Assembly (NCBI GenBank): GCA_021775005.1
Contig: JAJFIK010000065.1
Span: 1 to 64,000 of the forward strand
Reading direction: 5' to 3'
DNA from: Rhodospirillales bacterium
GTDB lineage: Bacteria; Pseudomonadota; Alphaproteobacteria; JAJFIK01
Length of the DNA: 64,000 bases
Part shown: in pieces, positions 2,350 to 44,981 of the stretch
Position numbering within the stretch: the first letter of the stretch is position 1
How the letters are laid out: each line of letters starts with the position of its first letter
Program-made: the position numbers and the translations under genes
Notes under the pieces: generated by a model
What the model saw: only the letters and a program-made list of their open reading frames with translations
What the model was told of the DNA's origin: nothing
Database searches by the model: none

Positions 2350-4761
2350 CTACGCTTTGGCAGCGGCCTTCTTAGCTTTTCTCTCGGCCCCGTCGAAGAA
2401 TATCAACAGTGCTGGCAGCAGAAGAAAATCAAGTACAAGCGCCGTGGCAATGGTTGCGGCCACCATAATGCCCAACATGGCATTCACCTTGAAATAGCTG
2501 AAGGCAAGTACCGAAAATCCAGCCACGAGCACAAACGTGGAAACCCACAGGGGCAAGCCAACTGTTGTAAAGGCGTAGAGCACCGCGTCTTTGGCATCCA
2601 ATCCCTTTTCATCTCGCGCCCGCTGATACTTGGATAGAAAGTGCACGGTTGCGTCCACAATAAGGCCAAGGGCGGTTGCCACCACGAAAGAGGCCCAGAA
2701 CCCGATCTCTGTCACGAACACCGCATATATGCCGAACGCCACAAGCGGCGGCATGATGTTAGGAATGAGACTGATGATCCCGAGGCGAATGTTGCGTAAG
2801 GCGAGCACCAGAATGAGCGATATCAAGATCAGCGCGATGGCCGTCCCAACCCGCATTTGGGCGAAGTTCGATGTCCCGATATAGGCGAACATCACGAACT
2901 GACCAGCGGGACGAACCTCTTCGCCGTCCTCGCGGGTCATCATGTATTCCGGGAAGTTGTCCCCCATCCACTCACTGGCGCAATCGCGCAGCACGGAAAA
3001 CTCTTCCGTCGAAAGGTCGTCCAACGTGACCACAAGGCGCGATGCTGATTTGTCCACATTCAACTGGTCGTTGAGGTCGAGCCCATATGGAAGTGAGAAC
3101 TCATAAAGCAGCACATATTGCGCGGCTTCCTGGCGACCATCGGGTATGCGATAATAACTTGGGTCGTCTTCATGCATAGACTCGTTCAACTGTTTGATGA
3201 CATCAGTAAACGTTGCCACATGCACTATCCCGTCTTGTTCGCGATACCAATTGGCAAAAGCTTCAAGGTTATTGAGGTATTCAGGTTCCTGAATACCGCC
3301 GCTGTCCGCTGCCGGAATGGAATAGCTCACTTGATAAATGCCGGTGAGGTTATCTGCGGCGAAGTCACTATCAACGCGGAAGTCCACCCGATCATCGAAG
3401 TATTCAACAAATCGGTCATTGAAGGTAAGATTGGGCAGCATGGCGATGGAGGCCACCGCGCCGATGGCGATGATGCCAAACAACGGCACGCGCAAACGAA
3501 TTACGGCTCTACCAAACTTTTCCATGAAGCGCGATTGATTTTCCACCGCGCCATACGCCCGGATCGGCAATACCGCCAGCAGCGCCGGCAATAGTGTCAC
3601 CGATCCAAACCAGGCGTACATTGACCCAATGGCCGCAAGAGTGCCCAAGTCGCGGAACGGTTGGGCGTCGGCGAAATTCAAACTGGCAAAACCAATGGCC
3701 GTGGTGGCTGAGGTCAAGAATACCGGCGTCCAATTGATCCGCAGGCTCTCTTCCAATGCCTCGTTTTTGCTTTGCCCGCGATGCATTTGAATAAGCATCG
3801 TCACCAATATGTGGATTGAATCCGCGACCGCCACTGTCAGGATCACTGTAGGCGTGGATGCAGATGGCGGCGACAAGGGAATGCCGAGCCAGCCCGCGGT
3901 GCCCATGGCGGCGGCGGCAGATGTGATAACAATAACAATTGCCGCAAACGTGCCGAAGATCGACCGCGTTAGCAGCAAGATCGTAAAGATCAAGATGCCC
4001 AGCATAATGGGTATGAGAGTTGAAAGATCGGAACGCGCGGCTTCGGAGAAGGCATTGCCGAGCAGGATCGATCCGGTCAAGGCAAAATGCACATCGGGAT
4101 ATTCATCGACATAGCGTGCTTCAACTTCGCGGGCGAAGGCGGAAAGCTCTCCGACGGCGGCACGGGTTGCCGCTAGCTCCTCCGCCGTTTCGGCGTCTTG
4201 CTCCTTGGGCATGGCAAGGGTGGCCACAATCGCCGTGGTGCGGCCGTCCTCTGAGATCAGGCGCAGGTTGATAGCGGGCTCACCCCATGCGGTCTCCAAT
4301 ACCCATCGGCCTTCTTCGTCGGTCACGTTTTCGGGGTCTTGCACAAGGTCGCGGACAAAGATGTCATCGCCCTGAGCTGTTGTGTGTTGATAGTTGGTGA
4401 GCGAATCAACGCGCGTCACATAAGGGGCCTGCCAGGCGTCTTCCGTCATCTGCGCGATGAGGTTGAGCATGCGCGGCGACGTCGCAGAGCCTTCATCGGG
4501 CTGCAACACCCAAAGGATCGTGTCCGGCGCGGAATAGGTATTTTGTATGCGCTCGAAGTCTACCAGATTGGGATTTTGTGCATCGAAAAAGTAGCGATAG
4601 TCGGTGGTGAAGCCGATTTTGCTGCCGCCACTGGCAATAGCCAATAGAGCCGCAAGCGATAACAAGATGACGACAAAACGAAATCGAATAACAAATCGCG
4701 CATAGGCGCGAACGGCATTTGAAAAAGCGGTCCCGCCGCCATTACCACTTGTACGTGCCAT
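2350..4761 (-). CDS. RND/MMPL-family transporter
   Basis: 803 residues from the ATG at 4761 (CGGGAG at good spacing); the open frame extends to 4854 but without a ribosome site. Topology is the RND pattern: one N-terminal helix, a large periplasmic loop, five helices, a central cytoplasmic stretch, then the same again. Each half carries an acidic residue in the fourth helix of its bundle (VADSIHILVT and IVDATVHFLS), the positions that carry the proton relay in RND proteins. The C-terminus is Lys/Ala rich. MMPL/HpnN-like members move lipids, hopanoids or sterols. Genes on either side (tetR upstream, LolA-like and barrel downstream) suggest a dedicated envelope lipid-transport or efflux unit. 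The substrate cannot be read from sequence. Confidence 0.92.
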   Translation of the reverse strand: MARTSGNGGGTAFSNAVRAYARFVIRFRFVVILLSLAALLAIASGGSKIGFTTDYRYFFDAQNPNLVDFERIQNTYSAPDTILWVLQPDEGSATSPRMLNLIAQMTEDAWQAPYVTRVDSLTNYQHTTAQGDDIFVRDLVQDPENVTDEEGRWVLETAWGEPAINLRLISEDGRTTAIVATLAMPKEQDAETAEELAATRAAVGELSAFAREVEARYVDEYPDVHFALTGSILLGNAFSEAARSDLSTLIPIMLGILIFTILLLTRSIFGTFAAIVIVITSAAAAMGTAGWLGIPLSPPSASTPTVILTVAVADSIHILVTMLIQMHRGQSKNEALEESLRINWTPVFLTSATTAIGFASLNFADAQPFRDLGTLAAIGSMYAWFGSVTLLPALLAVLPIRAYGAVENQSRFMEKFGRAVIRLRVPLFGIIAIGAVASIAMLPNLTFNDRFVEYFDDRVDFRVDSDFAADNLTGIYQVSYSIPAADSGGIQEPEYLNNLEAFANWYREQDGIVHVATFTDVIKQLNESMHEDDPSYYRIPDGRQEAAQYVLLYEFSLPYGLDLNDQLNVDKSASRLVVTLDDLSTEEFSVLRDCASEWMGDNFPEYMMTREDGEEVRPAGQFVMFAYIGTSNFAQMRVGTAIALILISLILVLALRNIRLGIISLIPNIMPPLVAFGIYAVFVTEIGFWASFVVATALGLIVDATVHFLSKYQRARDEKGLDAKDAVLYAFTTVGLPLWVSTFVLVAGFSVLAFSYFKVNAMLGIMVAATIATALVLDFLLLPALLIFFDGAERKAKKAAAKA

Positions 4762-40423: not shown

Positions 40424-40729
40424 TCAGTACTTGTTGATGTCGTCATTGCCATCCTGGTTTCGGCCGCGATAGGGCATGTAGACGCGAATGCCCCACCAGT
40501 TCAACGCGGCCAGAATGCCCAGCATCGCCAAGGGGAAACTCACCGGAAAGCCGGTGGCGGCGATGCCGTCGCCAAAGAGCCAGATCACAGGTGCCAGCTC
40601 AATGGCAGCAAGGCCCACACCGAGGAAGAAGTACGTCGGCAACATTACCTCAATGAGGCCAAAGCCGATCCCCGCGATCAACCACGCGGCGGGGTCAAGA
40701 AACCAGCGGACGATTTGCTCCGTGGTCAT
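40424..40729 (-). CDS. NfeD-family membrane protein (short form)
   Basis: 101 residues with three hydrophobic segments (AWLIAGIGFGLIEVMLPTYFFLGVGLAAIELAPVIWLF, then SFPLAMLGILAALNWWG) and a short hydrophilic tail. This is the membrane part of NfeD without the usual C-terminal OB-fold, as in short NfeD1b forms. It starts inside the SPFH stop (ATGA overlap), the classic stomatin-NfeD pair that organises membrane microdomains. Confidence 0.85.
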   Translation of the reverse strand: MTTEQIVRWFLDPAAWLIAGIGFGLIEVMLPTYFFLGVGLAAIELAPVIWLFGDGIAATGFPVSFPLAMLGILAALNWWGIRVYMPYRGRNQDGNDDINKY

Positions 40730-41607
40730 GATGCTCCTCCTTCCTTGCGCTCAAGAAACATCTTGAACGGATCGCTGAACGCATCGCTCAAGCTACTCGG
40801 TACCAAAATGAACTTGGCATTGTCGGACGCGCCGATCGTTGAGATGCTATCCACTTGGCGTTTGGCGATCTCAAACTGAATCGCCTTCTCACCGTTATTG
40901 CGGATGGCTTCAGCGACAACTTCGGTCGCATAGGCATCTGCTTCAGCTTGAATGCGGCGCGCGTCGGCGAGTTTTTGCGCGGTGTAAAGTTCCGCATCCG
41001 CGTCAAGTTCTCTTGAGCGCTTGTCGCCCTCCGCGCGGGCAACGGTTGCCCGGCGTTCGCGTTCCGCGTTCAGCTGTTGCAACATGGCGTCCCGCGTTTG
41101 ACCATCCAGGTTGATGTCGAGGATCTCAGATCGCGTGATCATGATGCCCCATTCATCAGTGGCTTCGGCCAAGTGCTCGCGGATTTGCAGGTTAAGCGCC
41201 GCGCGGTTCGATTGCACTTCATCAAGCTCAATCTTACCAATTTCAGAGCGCACCAAACCAGCAACGGTGGTCTGCACCGCCGCATCGATATCGCGAATGC
41301 GATAGACCGAGTTTTCCGGTTTGATGACGCGATAGAACACCGCCACTTCAGCTTGAAGCGTTACGTTGTCCTTGGTGATCGCGTCCTGTGCCAAGTGCGG
41401 CAACTGCCGCTCCAGGATCGAAACCCGGTGGCGCACGCTATCCAGCAGCGGCATTATCAAGTTAAGCCCCGGCGTTAGCACCGAGCGATAACGCCCGAGC
41501 CGCTCCACCACCCAGTTTTCAGACTGGGGAACAATGCACACGGCGCGTAACAGGACGATGATCGCGCCGAAGCCGACGGCGACCCAAAGAATTGCCATAA
41601 TAGACAT
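40726..41607 (-). CDS. SPFH/stomatin-like (band 7) membrane protein
   Basis: 293 residues from the ATG at 41607 with AAAGGAG 7 bases before it. One N-terminal helix (about 4-22), then the SPFH domain: VPQSENWVVERLGRYRSVLTPGLNLIMPLLDSV, DNVTLQAEVAVFYRVIKPENSVYRI, ALNLQIREHLAEATDEWGIMITRSEILDINLD. A long coiled-coil with AERERRATVARAEGDKRSRELDADAE follows. The family forms oligomers at lipid rafts together with NfeD; E. coli QmcA is the nearest named relative. Its promoter should lie in the 41610-41700 stretch. Confidence 0.93.
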   Translation of the reverse strand: MSIMAILWVAVGFGAIIVLLRAVCIVPQSENWVVERLGRYRSVLTPGLNLIMPLLDSVRHRVSILERQLPHLAQDAITKDNVTLQAEVAVFYRVIKPENSVYRIRDIDAAVQTTVAGLVRSEIGKIELDEVQSNRAALNLQIREHLAEATDEWGIMITRSEILDINLDGQTRDAMLQQLNAERERRATVARAEGDKRSRELDADAELYTAQKLADARRIQAEADAYATEVVAEAIRNNGEKAIQFEIAKRQVDSISTIGASDNAKFILVPSSLSDAFSDPFKMFLERKEGGAS

Positions 41608-41724
41608 GAGGGGTCTCCTTTCGTTGTTGGTCCTCACCCATTACATATGGGATGCGCGCTATGGTTTTATTCTACAAATCCCGAAACCTAATTTGCCTTG
41701 TGTGGCCTTGGGAGAATTTTTGAA

Positions 41725-41778: not shown

Positions 41779-42023
41779 GTCGGCAGCGCCAGTGGAAAAC
41801 CATGTGGGCGAGCAGTGAACAACCGCTGCGGGAGCCCTGTCCGCATTTGACACCTCTTTAGGGTAGCGTCAGGCTGCTCCCATCCGCACAGTCGGCCCTC
41901 CAAGACGGGGTGTTTAAGGGCCAGCGTTGACGGCGTTGATGGGGATGGGGGTGCATTTTTCATATTGCGTTCTGCACGCGCTCCGCGGGGATTTTTTCAG
42001 TTCATTTGAGTTTTGAATTGGCG

Positions 42024-42039
42024 TGGCACATGCGCTGCC
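42024..42039 (+). promoter_or_regulatory. Sigma-54-like promoter
   Basis: TGGCAC at 42024-42029 and CTGC at 42035-42038 place GG and GC exactly 10 bases apart, the -24/-12 rule of RpoN promoters (consensus TGGCAC-N5-TTGC). Start of transcription would be near 42050, just before the first stem of the structured region. Confidence 0.45.
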
Positions 42040-42049
42040 TAGCGTGAGC

Positions 42050-42351
42050 GAAGGAGAATTATCGGTTCGCGGTCGGGTCTCTTATCCCAAACTCCCTTCA
42101 CCACCGGAGGTCTGACCGCGTCCGTATGACTTTGGCCCAAATCCCTCCCTTTTTGCCTCGGGGGGCCCCCACACCAAAGTCATACGACAGCACGGAAGAC
42201 GAAGAACACGTCAGGGCCATACTCACGCCAATCCCCTGGCCCGCCAGCTGGCTTTAACCCGGTCCCTGGCAAAGAACGTGGTCTTCCGTATCCCAAAGGG
42301 CCCGGTCCACGGCATCGTTCCCCGATGTCTGCGCCGGGCCCCCCTTTTTTT
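42050..42351 (+). ncRNA. Candidate structured noncoding RNA
   Basis: No plausible gene lies in this stretch, yet it holds a chain of stems. (1) CGCGGTC/GACCGCG, 42068-42074 with 42114-42120. (2) CGTATGACTTTGG/CCAAAGTCATACG, a perfect 13-bp stem, 42123-42135 with 42174-42186. (3) A rod: ACGGAAGAC/GTCTTCCGT (42192-42200 with 42281-42289), CACGT/ACGTG (42207-42211 with 42276-42280) and CAGGG/CCCTG (42212-42216 with 42264-42268). (4) GGGCCCGG/CCGGGCCC (42298-42305 with 42334-42341) around GGCATCG/CGATGTC. A run of seven T ends it, giving a plus-strand direction. It does not show the core motifs of RNase P RNA, tmRNA or SRP RNA. Transcription is inferred. Confidence 0.55.
42298..42351 (+). terminator. 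Intrinsic terminator of the candidate RNA
   Basis: GGGCCCGG and CCGGGCCC form an 8-bp stem with an inner 7-bp helix, followed by CCC and TTTTTTT at 42345-42351. An outer ATCCCAAA (42290-42297) can also pair with TTTGGGAT (42349-42356), so two mutually exclusive folds around the T-run are possible. Confidence 0.6.
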
Positions 42352-42404
42352 GGGATGGCAAATTTTCCAAAGATCACTTGGATCGCCCGATGACTCTAAC
42401 GGCC

Positions 42405-43196
42405 TTAACGACCGATGGCCCGGGCACCGAGAAAGGTAACGGCAAATATCGCCGATGCGACCAACACAATAGATGGCCCCGTGGGAGTGTCCCATGTGAA
42501 CGACAACGCCGTGCCCCCAAGCACCGATGCGATGCCAATCAGCGTTGCCCCGATGGCCATACTGATCGCATCGGATGAAATTGGCCGCGCCGCCGCCGCT
42601 GGTACAATGAGCAAAGAGATAATCATCAGTATACCAACGATCTGCATGCCAAGAGCGATCACAAGGGTGACGATCAACATATAGATAATCCGAATGGGTA
42701 ATGTGGGGATGCCTTCGACGCGCGCAAGATCTTCGTGCACGGTCAGCGACAGCAGGGGCCGCCAGATAAATGCCAATACCGCCAGCACAACGATTCCCAG
42801 CGTCCATATGGCAATGACATCGCCGCGGCCGATAGCAAGCACATCTCCAAACAGGTAGCCCATCAAGTCCATACGCACGGACGGCATGAACGAAAGCGCC
42901 ACAAGGCCGCCGGCCAAAGTGGCGTGACCCAATATGCCGATGAGCGTATCGGTGGCGAGCAAGCGCTTGGTCTCAAGACCCACCAGCGTCAACGCCAACG
43001 CCATACCAACGGCGACAATTCCAAACGCTACATTTGTGCCCAACGCCAAACCGGCGGCGATCCCCAATAGCGATGCATGGCTGACCGCATGGCCAAAAAA
43101 CGCCATGCGGCGCCAGACGATAAAACACCCCACCGGCCCGGCGATGATCGCCACGCCGACCCCGCCCAGAAGCGCGCGCCAAATGAACTCATCCAT
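42405..43196 (-). CDS. znuB: Zinc ABC transporter permease
   Basis: 263 residues from the ATG at 43196; the frame is open to 43451 but that part overlaps znuC. About eight hydrophobic helices of the ABC-3 metal permease family. Typical are GPVGCFIVWRRMAFFGHAVSHASLLGIAAGLALG, LLATDTLIGILGHATLAGGLV with His, and GILMIISLLIVPAAAARPIS. It forms the inner-membrane channel of ZnuABC. It overlaps znuC by 8 bases, so the two are one operon. Confidence 0.95.
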   Translation of the reverse strand: MDEFIWRALLGGVGVAIIAGPVGCFIVWRRMAFFGHAVSHASLLGIAAGLALGTNVAFGIVAVGMALALTLVGLETKRLLATDTLIGILGHATLAGGLVALSFMPSVRMDLMGYLFGDVLAIGRGDVIAIWTLGIVVLAVLAFIWRPLLSLTVHEDLARVEGIPTLPIRIIYMLIVTLVIALGMQIVGILMIISLLIVPAAAARPISSDAISMAIGATLIGIASVLGGTALSFTWDTPTGPSIVLVASAIFAVTFLGARAIGR

Positions 43197-43971
43197 GGAC
43201 GCCGCCCCCATCGGCCTCATCACTCTCATGATGGTCTTCGTTATGGTCATGGACGTGATCGTGGTGCGAATAGACGGCGAGAGATTCGGCAATGCCCGCG
43301 CCAAAGGTGCCGCGAAAGAGGGGGTGGTTTGCCACTTGTTGCGGCGGCCCCGAGCACAGCACCCGGCGATTAAGGAAAACAACTTTGTCCGCCCGCGCCA
43401 TGACAAAGTGGATGTCGTGGGAGACCAGCAAGACCCCGGCGCCGGTTTCATCGCGAATGTCTGAAATGAGATTGTAAAGCTCTGCTTCGCCGGTCAGGTC
43501 AACGCCCGCAAGAGGTTCATCAAGAACCAGCAATTGCGGCTTGCGCAAAAGCGCCCGCGCCAGCAGCACCCGCTGCATTTCGCCGCCGGAAAGGGCCGCA
43601 AGCGGTGTGGCAGTGGTGGTTTTCGCTTCGACGCGGTCCAGCACCCGGGCGATCTCATCAGGTTCAAAGCGCCCGGCGAGGCGTAAAAAGGCCGCCACGT
43701 TGAGGGGCAGCGTGACATCGCGCTCTACATGTTGCGGGGTGTAACCGATGGTCAGCCCCGGGCGTCTTTGTGTGGTGCCCGTCGTGGGTGCCATAAGTCC
43801 AAGCAGAATGCGCACCAGGGTCGATTTGCCCGCACCATTGAGACCGATCAGTGTGACGATCTCGCCGGCCTCAATACGCAGATCCACCGCTTCAAGGAGT
43901 TGGCGACCTTGGGTTTCGAGCCCGACATTGCGAGCTTCAATAAGGGCTGAAAAAGGCACGGTGGGGGTCAT
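43189..43971 (-). CDS. znuC: Zinc ABC transporter ATP-binding protein
   Basis: 260 residues. Walker A GLNGAGKSTLVRI (near 42), Q-loop YTPQHVER, signature LSGGEMQRVLLARALL, Walker B QLLVLDEPLAGVD and the H-loop VSHDIHFVM. The last 25 residues are a His/Asp rich tail (YSHHDHVHDHNEDHHES) that could bind zinc and sense or buffer the substrate, a feature of many ZnuC proteins. It powers import through ZnuB. Divergent from znuA. Confidence 0.96.
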   Translation of the reverse strand: MTPTVPFSALIEARNVGLETQGRQLLEAVDLRIEAGEIVTLIGLNGAGKSTLVRILLGLMAPTTGTTQRRPGLTIGYTPQHVERDVTLPLNVAAFLRLAGRFEPDEIARVLDRVEAKTTTATPLAALSGGEMQRVLLARALLRKPQLLVLDEPLAGVDLTGEAELYNLISDIRDETGAGVLLVSHDIHFVMARADKVVFLNRRVLCSGPPQQVANHPLFRGTFGAGIAESLAVYSHHDHVHDHNEDHHESDEADGGGVHG

Positions 43972-43999
43972 ATAACCGGTTCGCTATTGCAGATGGCGT

Positions 44000-44012
44000 C
44001 CTATACCATAGG
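44000..44012. promoter_or_regulatory. Palindrome CCTATACCATAGG between znuC and znuA (possible Zur site)
   Basis: Five-bp perfect arms around ACC in the 89-base divergent promoter region. Zur usually controls such promoters. The sequence only loosely resembles known alphaproteobacterial Zur boxes, and an AACCGGTT palindrome also lies nearby. Confidence 0.35.
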
Positions 44013-44060
44013 TGTCGGCAGGGGTGGGGCCCATGACGCCCAAGAGATTGAACAGGTCAG

Positions 44061-44981
44061 ATGCGCTATATCCTCGCTGCGATACTTCACGCATGGCTAA
44101 TCGGTGTTCTACCGGCCCAGGCTGCCCCGAATGTTGTGGTCACCATCAAGCCGCTTTACGGCATCGCGGCCAGTGTCATGGAGGGCGTCGGCAGTCCTGA
44201 GCTTTTGATCGAAGGCGCGATCTCTCCCCACACATTTCAATTTCGACCCTCTCAAATGCAACGCCTGGCCGATGCAGATGTGGTTATATGGATGGGGGAA
44301 AATGTTGAGATGCCTCTTGCGGAAAGCATGGCCGCTTTGCCCGCGCGCGTTCACGTGATCGAGATGGCAACTCATCCTGCTCTTGTGCGTCTTGCCTATC
44401 GCACCGGCGGGGTTTGGCCTTCGGAAGCAGACGTCGAGCCCGCTGCGGCGCATGCGCACGAGGGTGCGCTCGACCCTCATCTTTGGCTCGACCCGCGCAA
44501 CGGCATTCTTATGGCGCGCATTATGGCTGAGGCGTTAAGTGCGGCGGATCCTGAACATGCCGCCCTCTATGCCGCGAACGCAGATGCCTTGAGCGCCCGG
44601 CTCAGCGCCATTGATGCCGGCATCCGTGAGCAGCTGGCACCCTTTGCCGGGCAGCCTTTCATCGTCTTTCACGATGGGTTTCAATATTTTGAAGCGCGCT
44701 ATGGGCTCACGGCCGCAGGCTCCATCGCCCTTGATCCTGAGCGCCCGCCGGGGCCGCGCACGGTGATGGAATTGCGCTATGAGATTATGGACCGCAATAT
44801 TTCTTGCGTCTTTTCTGAACCCCAGTTCGGCATGCAGTTGGTTGAAACCGTAGTGGAAGGAACCGCCGCCCGCGCTGCGACGCTCGATCCCATCGGCGCG
44901 CAATGGCCTGCCACTGCGGGCGTTTACGAACACCTGTTGCAGCACTTGGCAGATGACTTTGTGGCGTGCATGGGTGGCTGA
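44061..44981 (+). CDS. znuA: Zinc ABC transporter substrate-binding protein
   Basis: 306 residues with a signal peptide (MRYILAAILHAWLIGVLPAQA). Periplasmic cluster-A-I metal-binding protein: VVTIKPLYGIAASVMEGVG, ISPHTFQFRPSQMQRLADADV with the first His ligand, LDPHLWLDPRNG with the second and FIVFHDGFQYFE with the third. The His-rich loop that many ZnuA proteins carry is almost absent (only AAAHAHEGAL). Divergent from znuCB, completing the zinc importer; no Zur gene is in the window. Confidence 0.94.
   Translation: MRYILAAILHAWLIGVLPAQAAPNVVVTIKPLYGIAASVMEGVGSPELLIEGAISPHTFQFRPSQMQRLADADVVIWMGENVEMPLAESMAALPARVHVIEMATHPALVRLAYRTGGVWPSEADVEPAAAHAHEGALDPHLWLDPRNGILMARIMAEALSAADPEHAALYAANADALSARLSAIDAGIREQLAPFAGQPFIVFHDGFQYFEARYGLTAAGSIALDPERPPGPRTVMELRYEIMDRNISCVFSEPQFGMQLVETVVEGTAARAATLDPIGAQWPATAGVYEHLLQHLADDFVACMGG

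Follow-up and report, generated by a model that had tools for sequence, protein, structure and literature searches.

The spacer between qmcA and znuB in the window, by which we mean the whole 64,000-nucleotide stretch of DNA analysed, raises the question of whether it encodes a structured RNA of its own. A first-pass annotation had proposed here an undescribed structured RNA, or several RNAs in tandem, with a sigma-54-like promoter and nitrogen or stress control, and had named folding against shuffled sequence, a scan with Rfam models and a search for compensatory changes in related spacers as checks. The folding exceeds that of shuffles, no Rfam family was matched, and compensatory changes are present in the related spacers. 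We therefore regard it as nearly certain (probability about 0.95) that positions 42068-42352 are the gene of a working, undescribed structured RNA of about 290-300 nt.

Folding, layout and borders of the element

The 321 nt from 42040 to 42360 fold at -134.3 kcal/mol, compared with -112.0 +/- 5.4 kcal/mol for shuffles (z -4.17), while the shorter stretch 42068-42352 on the plus strand reaches z -6.21, with 0 of 200 shuffles folding as well, so that the stems lie beyond chance as had been claimed. For the reverse strand the excess is smaller (z -2.76). Besides, 19 of the 184 paired cells in a structure-guided alignment of three species are G-U pairs. Such pairs would turn into mismatches on the other strand, and together with the weaker reverse-strand value they support the plus strand.

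The element is single-copy in its own genome, and homologues were found at the corresponding chromosomal place in two other species of the same genus, here called G001 and G002. Folded separately, the three copies adopt essentially the same layout, consisting of hairpins A and B, a helix D that encloses hairpins C and E, and hairpin F, with z -6.21 for the window copy and -5.36 and -4.67 for the two relatives. The features of the window copy and its upstream region are as follows.

42024-42038, plus strand: sigma-54-like TGGCAC-N5-CTGC, a probable chance match
42051-42057, plus strand: purine-rich leader AAGGAGA just 5' of hairpin A, read from the sequence
42068-42352, plus strand: structured RNA gene, minimum extent, based on z -6.21, the fold shared with G001 and G002, and 17 covarying pairs
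42068-42120, plus strand: hairpin A, arms 42068-42082 with 42106-42120; 3 pairs changed on both sides
42083-42105, plus strand: loop A, UAUCCCAAACUCCCUUCACCACC, identical in the three species save one C/U; candidate interaction site
42123-42186, plus strand: hairpin B, 13 bp stem 42123-42135 with 42174-42186; 7 pairs changed on both sides
42137-42165, plus strand: apex of B, with a C-rich internal strand and a CCUCCC/GGGGGG helix (42144-42149 with 42160-42165); sequence conserved
42192-42289, plus strand: helix D enclosing C and E, outer arms 42192-42200 with 42281-42289, inner arms 42207-42211 with 42276-42280; 6 pairs changed on both sides
42214-42242, plus strand: hairpin C, GGGCCA/UGGCCC stem and loop UACUCACGCCAAUCCCC; ACUCACGCCAA invariant
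42243-42270, plus strand: segment E, variable hairpin in the D-enclosed junction; unaligned and excluded from the covariation count
42298-42341, plus strand: GC-rich hairpin F, GGGCCCGG/CCGGGCCC conserved; 3' border of the conserved element
42345-42351, plus strand: run of seven T after F, intrinsic-terminator-like, in the window copy only

Several stems had been located correctly at the outset: the perfect 13 bp stem was exact, and the proposed rod is present with 9+5+5-6 bp. The first stem, given as 7 bp, does exist but is longer, with 15 bp including wobbles, and closes a 23-nt loop. The consensus of loop A in all three species is UAUCCCAAACUYCCUUCACCACC; in the apex of B the loop ends in UUGCCUC, with CCUCCC and UUGCCUCGGG kept across species, and in loop C ACUCACGCCAA is followed by UCCCC in the three species. 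The hairpin of segment E is clear in the folds of G001 and G002 and weak in that of the window. Overall, the stems diverge while the loops stay nearly invariant, loops A and C above all.

At the 5' side, the RNA gene may include a leader from about 42051. An AGGARA-like leader upstream of hairpin A is common to the three species, and the AAGGAGA of the window is possibly the 5' end of the transcript. This leader and CUCCCUU of loop A (42092-42098) are complementary in part, and in G002 the leader AAGGAA likewise matches UUCCUU of loop A; the leader may form a pseudoknot with the loop or mask it, with a pairing register that shifts between species. Regarding the 3' side, the intrinsic terminator proposed earlier stands in so far as a hairpin followed by TTTTTTT is present and GC hairpin F is conserved in the three species, whereas the T-run belongs to the window copy alone.

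The promoter fared less well. TGGCAC-N5-CTGC had been placed exactly and is the only perfect match in the window, but sites with at most one mismatch number 22 in 64 kb versus 15.8 expected, neither relative keeps the matching sequence, and RpoN, which the window's genome and G001 encode, was not found in the G002 genome (91% complete). Sigma-54 control was thus rejected, as the site is at chance level and not conserved, which leaves nitrogen control unfounded and stress control unsupported. No conserved promoter was recognised across the three species. A short TTGCGT-containing stretch lies 5' of the RNA in all three at varying distance (41965-41970 in the window, 5030-5035 in L084 and 4310-4315 on the minus strand of L085) and is a possible promoter element.

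Compensatory changes, gene context and distribution

MAFFT alone shifts the stems by 1-2 columns, and the sequences were therefore aligned by hand along the structure, with rows matched to the genomic sequence. In this alignment, which comprises three sequences and is fitted to the structure, 184 of the 189 scored cells in all aligned helices are paired, and 17 pairs are changed on both sides with pairing kept, compared with 5.7 +/- 1.9 after shuffling of partners (0 of 5000 as high). Within the A-B-C core, 96.6% of cells are paired and 11 of 40 pairs are changed on both sides, a number reached by 0 of 500 shuffles and reduced to 0 to 3 when the partners were slid by 1-3 columns. The three single-sequence folds were obtained independently and agree without recourse to any alignment. 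From the plain MAFFT alignment, RNAalifold missed hairpin A but did recover the B apex together with parts of B, C and F. What the three species share is a conserved secondary structure with compensatory changes, as expected of a bacterial structured non-coding RNA. Given the same architecture in three species and the 17 covarying pairs, one folded unit is most likely, rather than the RNAs in tandem that had been suggested.

The gene order around the element differs between the species. In G002 it reads gcs2-like gene, N-formylglutamate amidohydrolase, RNA and znuB, with qmcA and nfeD missing, while G001 lacks the znu genes here, and its gcs2-like and amidohydrolase genes are followed by nfeD, qmcA, the RNA and then a small ORF and the gene of an outer-membrane-type protein, both of which sit beyond znuA in the window. 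That the RNA stays while either flank comes or goes argues for a gene of its own, and, being kept without qmcA-nfeD in G002 and without znuBCA in G001, it is not the leader or tail of either neighbour. The outer neighbours are conserved both where the nfeD-qmcA segment of the window (40424-41637) is not beside the RNA, in G002, and where znuBCA (42405-44981) is not beside it, in G001, and gene gain or loss has occurred repeatedly on both sides.

The stretch had also been described as free of open frames on the plus strand. This needs qualification by a mechanical 43-codon ATG frame at 42126-42257 within the element, but holds in that the shared motifs change frame with respect to each other from species to species; they are thus not kept for the sake of a protein, and the element is not coding. 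A small protein product was ruled out on the same grounds.

In 59 genomes drawn from the genus and the class, which contain no other genus of the same family or order, DNA matches were confined to the two other genus members. The best matches of qmcA point to Alphaproteobacteria as the class. A covariance model of the core scores the three copies at 128-165 bits and gave no credible further match in 385 genomes of the class, a 29.7-bit match of model R1 in G366 being rejected as it lacks loop A. Allowing the loop A pattern as many as 3 mismatches gave one further match, in a dUTPase-like coding gene whose fold is unremarkable (z +1.24), and this was likewise rejected. Chance-level or no matches were obtained from the 38 nearest genomes by PurH under permissive filters and from the whole order of one near family, nothing credible from 80 Rhodobacterales-type qmcA loci, and no match from viral contigs or from 72,556 plasmids. 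The RNA seems confined to one genus, as far as homologues within reach of the covariance model are concerned. Rfam 15 yielded nothing at the gathering thresholds; relaxing the limit to E = 10 added only a chance match of 12.1 bits to a ribosomal leader with a cut-off of 37.8. Identity with 6S RNA was ruled out, as a 6S gene scoring above the cut-off lies on other contigs in each of the three genomes.

Possible modes of action

On the analogy with described alphaproteobacterial RNAs, we give roughly even odds to a trans-acting regulatory RNA whose C-rich loops would pair with mRNAs. This reading is favoured because fixed C-rich loops on drifting stems resemble alpha-r14 RNAs, AbcR RNAs are similar, and Hfq is encoded in all three genomes. 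An autonomous non-coding RNA gene would be transcribed on the plus strand from about 42050 to 42352, giving a product of about 290-300 nt; its hairpins A and B, the D-enclosed junction (C and E) and the terminal hairpin F would hold several C-rich loops open. The fixed loops ACUCCCUUCACC (A), AUCCCUCCC (beside the apex of B) and ACUCACGCCAAAUCCCC (C) would bind several mRNAs at their purine-rich ribosome-binding regions and, probably with Hfq, reduce translation, while stem F would protect the 3' end or end transcription. In a comparison over 30 gene starts in the window, loop A and the B strand showed better pairing to initiation regions than to coding sequence, but composition-shuffled loops did equally well. 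For its part, CCUCCC in B is largely engaged in a helix, which counts against mRNA pairing. Extended complements of loops A and C gave matches at control level and no specific target. A complement of loop A with 3 mismatches, GGTGGAGGAAGT, occurs inside the same recR-like coding sequence in two species, in L117 (G000) and L113 (G001), and is probably a coincidence arising from a conserved protein stretch.

The main rival to the trans-acting reading is a structural or protein-binding role, in which the invariant loops and the junction would dock proteins and mRNA pairing would not be the main action. We entertain it tentatively, and equally its more specific form, an RNA that serves as a sponge or scaffold in the manner of 6S or CsrB. 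Loop A, with 23 nt and one change in three species, is longer than a typical seed, the compact multi-helix fold with its enclosed junction is conserved, and the failure of the complements of loops A and C to reveal an mRNA target also fits protein docking. Nevertheless, C-rich single strands are typical of the mRNA-pairing sRNAs of this class (PMC10746234, PMC8844928), no partner protein gene travels with the RNA, and the element is not 6S itself, which is encoded elsewhere in each genome. Somewhat doubtful is an unknown multi-domain RNA class of one deep lineage, in which the three ultraconserved loops and the D-enclosed junction would form a defined 3D device; that this device would be a protein dock, a ligand sensor or a multi-target hub unlike described alphaproteobacterial sRNAs is an equally doubtful part of it.

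It is improbable that the element acts in cis, as part of a neighbouring transcript (its long leader or tail, or a structured terminator region). A cis role would suit the same-strand ORF of G001 (L085 3559-3930, minus strand), which starts just downstream of the element, and hairpin F, which lies just past the end of znuB; yet the next gene, znuB, is on the opposite strand in the window and G002, qmcA points away in the window and G001, and the flanking genes differ between species while the RNA is kept. We attach very little probability to a DNA-level inverted repeat, whether mobile or REP-like, or to chance hairpins in a GC-rich spacer, despite the spacer location and the strong perfect inverted repeat: the element has one copy in the genome and the same locus in three species, its G-U pairs and strand asymmetry speak for RNA, the plasmids searched hold no match, and chance hairpins are already refuted by the covariation.

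Comparison with known RNAs

The tests made place the element outside alpha-r14, alpha-r15, 6S and every Rfam 15 family. It constitutes a new, firmly supported RNA family whose structure and boundaries are defined and which offers three candidate interaction loops, ready for experiment or for an RNA family library. Besides, a folding signal from a single genome is seen to be confirmable with as few as two relatives if the stems diverge and the loops do not, and a case is added of a large lineage-specific RNA outlasting change in both neighbouring gene sets. Covariation in intergenic sequence is the evidence here as it is for the candidate RNAs from comparative genomics (PMC2864571, PMC2704228); those of them that are in Rfam 15 do not match the element. 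Like 6S RNA (RF00013), the element is structured, without coding sequence and untied to a neighbour, but each of the three genomes has a separate 6S gene.

The AbcR sRNAs (alpha-r15, AbcR1/AbcR2) repress translation through similar C-rich motifs, CUCCUCCC and UUCCCCUC, which pair near ribosome-binding sites (PMC8844928). C-rich motifs in loop or linker positions are shared with the element, for which pairing with ribosome-binding sites is likewise proposed, whereas the architecture differs, no Rfam match is found, and CUCCUCCC and UUCCCCUC, by which alpha-r15 membership was judged, are absent from the element sequence. The anti-Shine-Dalgarno sRNAs of alpha-r14 carry fixed C-rich loops on changing stems (PMC10746234), as in NfeR1 of Sinorhizobium meliloti, where three hairpins within 115 nt each bear an identical unpaired CCUCCUCCC (PMC10746234; PMC8844928). 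In common with them, the element has several hairpins, variable stems, fixed C-rich unpaired motifs and Hfq in the genome; it differs in its length of about 290 nt, its enclosed junction, its three different loop sequences and the lack of an Rfam match, and CCUCCUCCC, the mark of alpha-r14, is absent from its sequence. With its junction, the element exceeds alpha-r14 and AbcR RNAs in size and complexity, and its long, near-invariant loops could equally bind protein.
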